A DNA stretch of 26,014 nt from a virus: positions 1 through 26,014 of IMG/VR virus record IMGVR_UViG_3300020477_000115, one strand, 5' to 3'. Position numbers and translations under genes: made by a program. The notes below the pieces were generated by a model. It saw only the letters and a list, made by a program, of their open reading frames with translations. It had not been told where the DNA came from and searched no databases. Of the stretch, positions 2,829 through 10,090 are shown piece by piece. How positions within the stretch are numbered: position 1 is the first letter of the stretch; the number at the start of each line of letters is the position of its first letter.

Positions 2829-3354
2829 TGTAGAAACAACTTTTGACGTTGATGAAGAAAATAAAATAACTTCAAGTCCATTTAATGATAACACATTAGT
2901 TTCTGTTGGATATAAAGTTAATGACAATCCTGTTGAGTATTTATGTTTTTATCATAGAGATGAACCACCAACACCAAATGCAAAAAAGATTTTACAAAAT
3001 GTTTTAGATAAAACAAGTATACTTATAGGACATAACATAAAATTTGATTATAGTTGGTTAATACAATGTGGATTTACTTATGACAAAAAATTACATGACA
3101 CTATGGTTATGGAATATATTATGGCACGAGGGGTTAAATGGGGATTTTCATTAGAGGATTGTTGTAAAAGAAAAGGTGTAGCACTTAAAAAAAGTGAACT
3201 AATTCAACCATTTATGACAAATAAAACTTCGTATGAAAGAATACCTTGGACGATTGTAGAAGAGTATGGTAAACAGGATGTTGAAAGTACTTATCAATTG
3301 GCTATGGCACAGTTGAGTAAATTAAAAATGAATTGGGGAGATTTATATGCCTAA
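2812..3354 (+). CDS. 3'-5' proofreading exonuclease, DnaQ/Pol I type, stand-alone
   Basis: Carries the DEDD-type exonuclease motifs of the Pol I proofreading domain. Counting from TTG 2806: Exo I LDVET with D8 and E10, Exo II GHNIKFD with D81, and Exo III YGKQD with Y154 and D158. It presumably proofreads for the polymerase encoded immediately downstream. I place the start at GTG 2812, where a GGAG (2799-2802) sits nine bases upstream; TTG at 2806 is an equally readable alternative two codons earlier. In most family-A polymerases this domain is fused to the polymerase; here it ends in a stop within the interdomain linker and overlaps the polymerase gene by eight bases in the +1 frame. Confidence 0.85.
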   Translation: MILTLDVETTFDVDEENKITSSPFNDNTLVSVGYKVNDNPVEYLCFYHRDEPPTPNAKKILQNVLDKTSILIGHNIKFDYSWLIQCGFTYDKKLHDTMVMEYIMARGVKWGFSLEDCCKRKGVALKKSELIQPFMTNKTSYERIPWTIVEEYGKQDVESTYQLAMAQLSKLKMNWGDLYA

Positions 3355-4900
3355 TGGAATAGTACCTACTATAAAACTTTCAATGGAACTAACAAAAGTT
3401 TTAGCTGACATTGAAATGAATGGTTTACATATTGATACTGACATATTAACAAGTATAAAAGTTAAATTTGAAAAAGAACTTGTTGACTTACAAAAATATT
3501 TAAATGACAAAGTAAAATATTTTATGGGTGATACGCCAATTAATTTAGATTCACCAGAAGATAGGTCGGTGCTTTTTTATTCAATGAAAGTAACTGACAA
3601 AAAAATGTGGGCGACAAGATTTAATATAGGATATGAATTAAGAGGTAATACAAAAAAACCTAAACGAAGAACTAATTTTGAAAGTGTAAGAGATTTTTAT
3701 ATAGAAATAAATTCAATGGCAAGACCAGTATTCAAAACACATGGAACTATTTGTCATAACTGCCAAGGAACTGGTAGATACACTTATATGAAAAAAGATG
3801 GTACACCAAGTAATGTAAAACGAAAATGTAAAACTTGTGATGAAAAAGGATTACTGTTTACAAATAAAGATGAGAGAGCAGGATTAAAATTAAAACCAAG
3901 AAATGTTATTGATTGTTCTGCTATGGGATTTAAAACTGACAAAGAAATATTAGAAAGTTATTTATCTACTGCTAGTGATGAGACACATGAATTTTTAGTT
4001 AAGTATGTACGCTATTCAGCTATACGAACTTATCTAAGAACTTTTGTAGATGGTATGCAAAAAGCTATAAGTAAAGATGGTATGGTACATCCACAATTTA
4101 TGCAATGTGTAACAAGCACAGGAAGATTATCATCTAGAAATCCTAACTTCCAAAATATGCCTAGAGGTAATACTTTTCCTGTTAGAGAATGTATTACTTC
4201 ACGATTTAAAGGTGGAAAGATACTAGAAGGCGATTACTCTCAACTAGAATTTAGAGTAGCGGGATTTTTAGCGAGTGACAAACAAGTACTTAAAGATGTT
4301 AAAGATGAGGTTGATGTTCATAGTTATACAGCTAGGATATTAGGTGTATCTAGACAAAAAGCTAAATCTGATACCTTTAAACCACTTTATGGAGGTATTT
4401 TAGGTACTCCAAAGCAAATGCAATATTATAGAGCATTTAAAAACAAGTATTCTGGTATTACAAGGTGGCATAGAGAACTACAGAATGAAGCACTTATGTC
4501 AAATAAGATAAAATTACCTAGTGGAAGACAATATTTCTTTCCAAATGTTGAACGATTACGTAGTGGAAGTGTAACAAATTCTACTGCTATAAAGAATTAT
4601 CCTGTACAGGGCTTTGCCACAGCAGATTTATTGCCTATTGCATTAATTAATTTAAAAAACTTGTTGACAAAAAGAAATTTAAAGACTATTATATGCAACA
4701 CAGTACATGATAGTATCGTTTTGGATGTGTATCCAGACGAAGAACAACAAGCTATCACAACTTTAAAGGAGGCTATGATGTCTTTATCCGATGAGTGTGA
4801 AAAAAGATATGGCTTTAAATATACGATGCCAGTAGGAATTGAGTTAAAACTCGGTGATGATTGGTTAAACATGAAGGAGGTTTATAAATCAAATGGTTGA
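3347..4900 (+). CDS. DNA polymerase, family A, polymerase part with DnaJ-like zinc-finger insert
   Basis: Replicative phage polymerase. Residues 1-35 match the start of the thumb-side domain after the proofreading domain. A DnaJ-type zinc module follows, CxxCxGTG at 136-143 and CxxC at 161-164. The catalytic core is intact: TGRLSSRNPNFQNMP at 258-272; motif A GDYSQLE at 295-301 with D296; motif B with R336, K340, F344 and Y348-G349 at the same spacing as E. coli Pol I; motif C VHDS at 453-456. The second motif C position is Ser instead of the usual Glu. The start is supported by GGGGAG seven bases upstream. From memory, a partial DnaJ domain in the polymerase is characteristic of HMO-2011-type phages. 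Confidence 0.92.
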   Translation: MPNGIVPTIKLSMELTKVLADIEMNGLHIDTDILTSIKVKFEKELVDLQKYLNDKVKYFMGDTPINLDSPEDRSVLFYSMKVTDKKMWATRFNIGYELRGNTKKPKRRTNFESVRDFYIEINSMARPVFKTHGTICHNCQGTGRYTYMKKDGTPSNVKRKCKTCDEKGLLFTNKDERAGLKLKPRNVIDCSAMGFKTDKEILESYLSTASDETHEFLVKYVRYSAIRTYLRTFVDGMQKAISKDGMVHPQFMQCVTSTGRLSSRNPNFQNMPRGNTFPVRECITSRFKGGKILEGDYSQLEFRVAGFLASDKQVLKDVKDEVDVHSYTARILGVSRQKAKSDTFKPLYGGILGTPKQMQYYRAFKNKYSGITRWHRELQNEALMSNKIKLPSGRQYFFPNVERLRSGSVTNSTAIKNYPVQGFATADLLPIALINLKNLLTKRNLKTIICNTVHDSIVLDVYPDEEQQAITTLKEAMMSLSDECEKRYGFKYTMPVGIELKLGDDWLNMKEVYKSNG

Positions 4901-9386: not shown

Positions 9387-9607
9387 TGGCAGTAACTTCA
9401 TCGACAATAGCTAGTTTTGATGTAAAGATTACATCTGAGGGATTGCTTGTTTTAGAAACAAAGCTAGCTAAATCTTCTGATTTTATGGAAGTTATGGATA
9501 AATGGAATCCCGAATATGAAAATACCCCTGTTATAGCATCTATGTTAGATTACTATGCAGGGGTATTTGATTTAATGTTAAAGGATAGTCAAAAAATGGT
9601 AACCTAA
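9386..9607 (+). CDS. Small hypothetical protein (73 aa)
   Basis: The last gene of the plus-strand block, begun by a TAATG overlap with its neighbour. It is a 73-residue soluble protein, beta-like at the N-terminus and helical after residue 45. No family recognised. Its stop codon overlaps the stop of the convergent hsp20 gene, leaving no room for a separate terminator between the two blocks. Confidence 0.6.
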   Translation: MAVTSSTIASFDVKITSEGLLVLETKLAKSSDFMEVMDKWNPEYENTPVIASMLDYYAGVFDLMLKDSQKMVT

Positions 9608-9999
9608 GATTGTATTTTGATAATCTTTGGTTTTTCTGATTCTGGAATTTCTCTATGGTAGGATACTTTAAGCATTCCATCCTCAAGTTTAGCACCATTT
9701 ACAACTATATGTTCATGTAATTTAAATCTTCTAGTAAAACTTCTATTAGCTATACCTTTATGAAGATAGTCTGTATCTTTAGATTCTTTACATCCGTATA
9801 TAGATAGAAGATTATCTTTTACTTCTATCTTTAAGTCTTTTTCTTTGAATCCTGCTACTGCTAATTCAATAAGACCTTTTTCATCCTTCTCCTTTACATT
9901 GTAAGGGGGATAAGTATTATGTGTTTTAACAAAAAAGTCTGAAAAAAAATCATCGTTAAAACCTAAAAAATGATTTTTTAATATGTCTAAATCGCCCAT
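9604..9999 (-). CDS. Small heat-shock protein, Hsp20/alpha-crystallin (IbpA-like)
   Basis: ATP-independent holdase chaperone that binds unfolding proteins in the cytoplasm. The 131-aa sequence carries the IbpA-type features: YPPYNV before the alpha-crystallin domain, ELAVAGF, the GIANRSFTRRF region, and LEDGMLKVSYHREIPES-KPKIIKI at the C-terminus including the I-x-I anchor (KIIKI). The start is ATG 9997-9999, seven bases after a perfect AAGGAG (10007-10012); a TTG 12 codons upstream has no site. It is the last gene of the minus-strand block but has its own leader and likely promoter. Hsp20 genes are known in cyanophages and other marine phages, where they may protect virion assembly. Confidence 0.93.
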   Translation of the reverse strand: MGDLDILKNHFLGFNDDFFSDFFVKTHNTYPPYNVKEKDEKGLIELAVAGFKEKDLKIEVKDNLLSIYGCKESKDTDYLHKGIANRSFTRRFKLHEHIVVNGAKLEDGMLKVSYHREIPESEKPKIIKIQS

Positions 10000-10053
10000 T
10001 GTATTTCTCCTTTGTAAGCGAGTTAAGTCAGCCAACCCATTATGGCGTTAGCT
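9997..10053 (-). promoter_or_regulatory. ROSE-like RNA thermometer in the hsp20 leader
   Basis: Read on the minus strand, the leader forms two hairpins. Hairpin I (10053-10030): AGCTAAC pairs with GTTGGCT (one G-U), with an inner GCC/GG extension. Hairpin II (10022-10007) is CTCGCTTACAAAGGAG: CTC and CTT pair with AAGGAG around one bulged G, closing on an ACA loop and hiding the whole Shine-Dalgarno. The anti-SD strand contains UCGCU, the U(U/C)GCU signature of ROSE elements, which control alphaproteobacterial small heat-shock genes and E. coli ibpA. The stem is short (6 bp), consistent with melting at modest temperature. Structure is by eye; no folding energy was computed. Confidence 0.65.
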
Positions 10054-10058
10054 TATTT

Positions 10059-10077
10059 AGTATATATAATATACACT
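10059..10077. repeat. Near-perfect 19-bp palindrome over the hsp20 -10 region
   Basis: AGTATATAT-A-ATATACACT: two 9-base arms complementary except for one position that would be a G-U pair in RNA. It covers the proposed -10 box, so it could be an operator for a dimeric regulator. Simple TA composition makes chance occurrence quite possible. Confidence 0.35.
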
Positions 10078-10090
10078 AAAAACTTTTCAA
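10062..10090 (-). promoter_or_regulatory. Candidate sigma-70-type promoter for hsp20
   Basis: On the minus strand, TTGAAA (10090-10085) is followed after 16 bases by TATATA (10068-10063). Initiation would fall near 10055, just before hairpin I, so the predicted transcript would begin with the two-hairpin leader. The -10 match is only moderate and the region is AT-rich, so this is supported mainly by its position. Confidence 0.4.

Follow-up and report, generated by a model that had tools for sequence, protein, structure and literature searches.

The gene hsp20 is a core gene of T4-like cyanomyophages (PMC9004378), yet the reason that phages retain it is unclear. The leader of one viral hsp20 gene, which is predicted to fold over its own Shine-Dalgarno (SD) sequence, raises the question of whether viruses control this chaperone through a ROSE-type RNA thermometer. 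We consider it likely that this leader is a cis-regulatory RNA of the ROSE type, built of two hairpins, which acts as a heat-opened switch on Hsp20 and has been kept across phages, with the reservation that there is no temperature experiment and that thermosensing is inferred from the family. New here is the virus-borne ROSE-type element, and its breadth across phages is the striking part.

The hsp20 Gene and Its Leader

The gene belongs to a viral sequence record 26,014 bases long (the whole stretch analysed, here called the window), which also codes for a primase, a DnaB-like helicase, a family A DNA polymerase and a Cas4-type exonuclease. The helicase is nearest to those of HMO-2011-type phages of marine alphaproteobacteria (Roseobacter phages CRP-212/235 and Pelagibacter phage HTVC033P). 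The polymerase (3347-4900) shows a weak match to a DnaJ CXXCXGXG-like zinc finger at residues 132-172 (E = 0.001, below cut-off). The hsp20 coding sequence (9604..9999, minus strand, as are all features below) specifies a small heat-shock protein of 131 amino acids (PF00011, E = 1e-17; PHROG 432 Hsp20, E = 2e-33) and begins with the AUG at 9999-9997. In the window and in its relatives, the leader ends directly at the AUG of hsp20.

An initial annotation of this locus had described a two-hairpin leader at 9997-10055, in which the SD pairs with CUCGCUU around a single bulged G. Its coordinates and its pairing are right as judged from the sequence, and the two-hairpin form is borne out by folding and, for hairpin I, by covariation. 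Hairpin I (10030..10053) consists of the stem AGCUAAC/GUUGGCU, an inner CCA/UGG and the loop UAA, with a second bulged G at 10046 that the annotation lacked. Hairpin II (10007..10022), the putative sensor, joins the anti-SD strand CUCGCUU (10016-10022) through the loop ACA (10013-10015) to the SD AAGGAG (10007..10012). Within the anti-SD strand lies the ROSE motif UCGCU (10017..10021), the bulged G being at 10019.

A promoter is inferred at 10061..10090 from TTGAAA (10085-10090), an 18-nt spacer and TATATA (10061-10066), an arrangement that is kept in relatives. In most leaders that have such a promoter-like word it lies 58-77 nt upstream of the AUG (picking the word nearest 75 nt biases towards this), so that the 5' end would fall at the foot of hairpin I. 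The annotation had predicted a transcription start at about 10055; we infer a start near 10054. A strict consensus promoter scan did not list the TTGAAA/TATATA word upstream of the leader.

Prevalence among Phage hsp20 Leaders

For the prevalence count, loci were collected by Hsp20 protein similarity only, loci picked by motif being excluded, and the motif was defined as T[CT]GCT lying 2-9 nt before the SD. By this definition it is present in 63/72 (88%) non-redundant hsp20 leaders and in 183/204 overall, as compared with 10 of 507 leaders (2%) of other SD-led genes from the same loci. The perfect anti-SD, CUCCU (CTCCT in DNA), occurs in 0/204 hsp20 leaders. The variants found instead are mainly CUCGCUU (44/64) and CUUGCUU (14/64), that is, U(U/C)GCU. 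Close Hsp20 relatives keep both hairpins despite changes in the stems; they fall into a clade that has U(C)GCU and another that has U(U)GCU. When viral contigs were scanned for the motif, at least 120 matches were returned and, among the matches listed with a readable gene start, nearly all precede an Hsp20-like gene. The identical scan of bacterial and archaeal genomes returned 11 matches, most of them upstream of marine alphaproteobacterial hsp20.

The element is found in cyanophages (S-PM2, S-SM2 and P-SSM4), in P-TIM68, P-SSM5, P-HM2, S-CAM22, S-SSM7 and ACG-2014f, in HTVC008M, HTVC115P, HTVC103P, Melnitz, C48C1, Atu_ph07 and Phosso and, by covariance model, in Pseudomonas phage vB_Pa-PAC2. 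Besides cyanophages, the carriers include pelagiphages, a methylophage and jumbo phages that infect rhizobia or Pseudomonas, and the scope of the element widens from the single phage of the initial annotation to most of the hsp20-carrying phages sampled. Related leaders without SD pairing would have refuted that annotation, and most leaders do not meet this condition. The exceptions are S-TIM5, the Vibrio phages IBT_VpB-34 and PWH3a-P1 and the contigs L256/L257, in all of which, as in the freshwater DSL-LC02, the element is missing or doubtful. From the occurrence of the same element before hsp20 in most phages examined, a heat-sensing chaperone switch may be in use by many viruses, although its opening with temperature has not been shown.

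Covariation and Conservation in the Hairpins

MAFFT alone misaligned the hairpins, and a model was therefore built from length-matched cyanophage leaders, to which the remaining leaders were aligned; an alignment of distant Hsp20s could not seed a scan, its sequences being too diverse. The resulting model, R1, rests on eight cyanophage leaders only and leaves out both the window and its clade. It nevertheless finds the hsp20 leader in the window with E = 2.3e-8 (next best, 0.023), and it also detects most other phage hsp20 leaders tested. R1 also matches weakly at two other window positions, 19010 and 11529 (E 0.02-0.03); these were set aside as chance, there being no ROSE motif paired to an SD.

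In an alignment of 42 leaders, 98.1% of cells pair, seven pairs are changed on both sides, and 68 cells carry a two-sided change as opposed to 16.8 in shuffles. The covariation score is 0.398, compared with 0.124 for shuffled alignments, none of the 500 shuffles reaches it, and sliding the partners abolishes the signal. This alignment was fitted to R1, which leans the pairing counts towards the model. An alignment-free check points the same way: a bulged-G hairpin of at least 7 pairs is present upstream in 89% of the leaders but in 9% of shuffles, and its outer stem uses A-U, U-A, G-C and C-G.

The two hairpins are supported in different ways. Hairpin I is kept in 62/63 leaders, and six of seven pairs vary on both sides among the 42 phage leaders. 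Hairpin II, kept in 63/72 leaders with 99.2% of cells paired, is near-invariant and retains its bulged G; only one change recurs regularly in its core, from C-G to U-G at the Y position of U(U/C)GCU. The support for hairpin II consequently comes from conservation and not from compensation, and it is hairpin I that covariation backs. The compensatory changes that the initial annotation proposed to look for in related phages are strong in hairpin I.

Relation to Bacterial ROSE Elements

At gathering thresholds, Rfam gives no match in the window or in 27 related loci. An open search, however, aligns ROSE_3 over the full length of the window leader at 17.3 bits, with the lowest E-value of the table (E = 0.16 over 4,227 families; divided by that number, about 4e-5 for a single family). 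ROSE_3 is the only match to the S-SM2 leader (24.9 bits, E = 0.0014) and the best match to a second phage leader, L009 (26.0 bits, E = 8e-4). The gathering score of ROSE_3 is 43 bits, all leaders tested fall below it, and annotation pipelines would therefore miss the element. Freshwater-2, preQ1-II, a CRISPR repeat and STnc300 also gave sub-threshold scores on the window; they were rejected, as they do not recur in S-SM2 and L009, where ROSE_3 is on top. A check against the Rfam ROSE models, which the annotation had called for, thus yields full-length similarity that stops short of the cut-off.

A second model, R2, was trained on the 42 phage leaders only. Run on E. coli and one related enterobacterium, it matches ibpB and, at ibpA, overlaps the elements assigned by Rfam to ROSE_2. 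Across 398 Pseudomonadota genomes it gives three matches, all hsp20/ibp leaders and one of them an enterobacterial ibpB, under strict filters by which weak members may be missed. Within a marine alphaproteobacterial order there is exactly one match in each of 27/60 genomes, and all those inspected precede hsp20, which suggests host-phage exchange of the element, at the level of sequence comparison and with the direction unsettled. A Rhodobacteraceae bin (G003) has six R2 matches on different contigs, three of which were inspected (L353, L356, L357) and precede different hsp20 genes; these are probably phage contigs binned with the host. The ROSE-type identification made initially is supported, then, by the motif, the two hairpins, the gene context, covariation, the sub-threshold similarity to ROSE_3 and the matches of the phage model to ibpA/ibpB.

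Comparison with Known RNA Thermometers

The nearest likeness is to ROSE_3 (RF02523) of Pseudomonas ibpA (PMC3669281), which shares the two hairpins, the leader of about 60 nt, U(U/C)GCU on the SD with a bulged G, the form of hairpin I (GAUGCC...GGGUC with a bulged G) and the small heat-shock gene downstream. The phage element differs in being virus-borne, in scoring 17-26 bits against a cut-off of 43, in its variable loop and linker lengths, in the absence of any sigma32 promoter seen for it and in having a thermal response that is inferred only. ROSE_2 (RF01832) is the element of enterobacterial ibpA, whose leader is more complex and stands in a chromosomal operon. The rhizobial ROSE (RF00435) ends in a hairpin with the same motif but has three to four hairpins in all, the additional ones being 5'. 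R2 has no match on the two rhizobial plasmid elements that Rfam calls ROSE, which places the phage form closer to the gammaproteobacterial type.

The lambda cIII leader (PMC4166951) is an older example of a phage RNA thermometer, with the opposite sign; unlike the present element it has two alternative folds, its translation is lowered by heat, and its gene and motif are unrelated. ROSE-G (PMC12857270) likewise has a bulged G in the SD-pairing strand, but carries CUGCU and two opposed bulged Gs upstream of ABC transporter genes. Identity with ROSE-G is rejected, the phage motif being UCGCU and its SD strand having no bulge, as is a FourU thermometer, in which four U pair with the SD, because the anti-SD here is CUCGCUU. 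The initial annotation knew of no ROSE element in a marine phage, and the open-access literature searched likewise contains no report of a ROSE element or hsp20 thermometer in any phage; subscription journals were outside the scope of the search, and priority is unproven. A study of cyanophage small heat-shock proteins does not mention the leaders (PMC5028025).

Proposed Mechanism

In Pseudomonas, a leader of this two-hairpin design carrying U(U/C)GCU has been proven to act as a thermometer, and hairpin II alone suffices for thermosensing (PMC3669281). In the ROSE family, heat melts hairpin II and frees the SD, whereas hairpin I remains closed (PMC3669281, PMC11342760). By inference, transcription of the phage gene would begin at or just upstream of hairpin I, which, to judge from Pseudomonas, may serve as a stable 5' stem that aids folding and mRNA stability. 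Hairpin II would mask the SD by means of U(U/C)GCU. The bulged G is presumed, from the family, to weaken this hairpin, such that warming exposes the ribosome site and more Hsp20 is made during infection. The element was probably acquired along with the gene from a proteobacterial hsp20/ibpA, with the direction of exchange left unsettled as above, and selection would have retained it in numerous phage lineages, those that infect cyanobacteria among them.

A bolder reading holds that phages as a group own a ROSE lineage, a near-universal heat switch on viral hsp20, cyanobacterial phages included, and that the window's clade has gained a second, start-codon-closing state, making it a bistable switch. 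We regard this combination as unlikely.

Alternative Explanations

The leader might be mainly a binding site for phage Hsp20, which would repress its own synthesis until aggregates of client proteins titrate it, in the manner of E. coli IbpA. On this view the RNA fold would serve as an operator for the protein and may sense heat in addition. IbpA binds the ibpA 5'UTR and represses its own translation, for which Arg93 is required (PMC10474464), and an Arg is aligned at this position in the window Hsp20 as well as in each of the five further phage Hsp20s examined. This residue (R102 in the Hsp20 alignment) is, however, nearly invariant across the Hsp20s compared generally and may be structural. 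The conservation of hairpin I in nearly all leaders, although it is dispensable for thermosensing in Pseudomonas (PMC3669281), indicates that it may need another role. There are no data on binding of phage Hsp20 to the leader, and such feedback is compatible with thermosensing. As the main function of the leader it is possible without being probable, and we treat IbpA-type feedback as a serious companion hypothesis.

Predicted folding exposes a weakness in the window's clade. That hairpin II encloses the SD, as initially annotated, holds for the window leader folded up to the AUG (SD 3-12% unpaired at 10-37 C, RNAfold), but not once at least 12 coding nt are included (82-88% unpaired), since RNAfold at 10-45 C then pairs the ROSE strand with the start-codon region. 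This rival helix, spanning 9987..10026 and known from RNAfold prediction only, joins 10015-10026 (UUAA, UCGCUUA) to 9987-9998 (UGGGCGA, UUAG); its formation would occlude the start codon and expose the SD. In this clade the leader could thus act by occluding the start codon and not the SD, or it could switch between two states, with AUGGGCGAUUUAG becoming the partner of the ROSE strand after the coding region has been transcribed. The rival helix is favored at 37 C (-6.3 versus -2.2 kcal/mol for the local fold), and codon 2 of hsp20 is GGC in 14/14 loci of the clade although GGC accounts for 34/441 Gly codons in the window genes. This argument from codon use carries little weight, since another Gly codon of the gene is likewise invariant. 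Moreover, most other clades lack the rival helix, and hairpin II is the first to form during transcription. We find start-codon occlusion, or a two-state switch, rather doubtful as the explanation, even for this clade. On the folding model, the rival helix does count against the exact SD mechanism, though in this clade alone, and either fold would restrain translation.

Across 65 leaders, the SD is predicted to be less than 30% unpaired at 20 C in 89% when folded to the AUG and in 65-71% with 12-33 coding nt, as compared with a closed SD in 32% of AAGGAG-led control genes. From 10 to 45 C the SD is predicted to open only modestly (medians of 0.08 to 0.21 unpaired). Such small opening, together with the modest temperature shifts that are generally known for the open ocean, would fit a conserved leader that is merely a fixed translation damper or mRNA stabilizer with no temperature response. 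A plain damper needs no destabilizing bulge, yet the phage leaders retain the bulged G and none of the 204 has a perfect anti-SD, and the core of hairpin II varies in a regular way only at the Y of the ROSE motif. In a comparable calculation E. coli ibpA, a published thermometer, shows an even smaller predicted opening. A fixed damper therefore appears improbable. A chance hairpin, for which only the common closure of control SDs could be cited, is refuted by the motif prevalence, by the independent R1 match and by covariation.

If the leader is indeed a heat-opened ROSE-type switch, ROSE elements extend from bacteria to viruses, and water temperature is tied to phage gene expression. A conserved thermosensor predicts that phages dose the chaperone by temperature, which is testable in the isolates S-PM2, S-SM2, HTVC008M, Atu_ph07 and vB_Pa-PAC2.

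Unusual Arrangements of the Leader

Several loci depart from the simple order of leader and gene. In L256 (1148-1203) and L257, whose leaders are HTVC008M-like, CUGUCUAAACAAGGAGG replaces the ROSE motif, and L256 retains hairpin I; these leaders may represent a divergent sensor. In L325 (888-1260), L334 (879-1260) and L023, the ROSE leader precedes a small open reading frame of 71-79 amino acids, which is followed by an hsp20 with no motif at its own start. The order looks as though an extra gene had been inserted between switch and chaperone. One of these small open reading frames is weakly phasin-like (PF09361, E = 0.014). In P-HM2 (L375, 133301-133798), the element and its SD lie inside the annotated hsp20 reading frame and end at a later AUG, indicating that the annotated start is probably too early.
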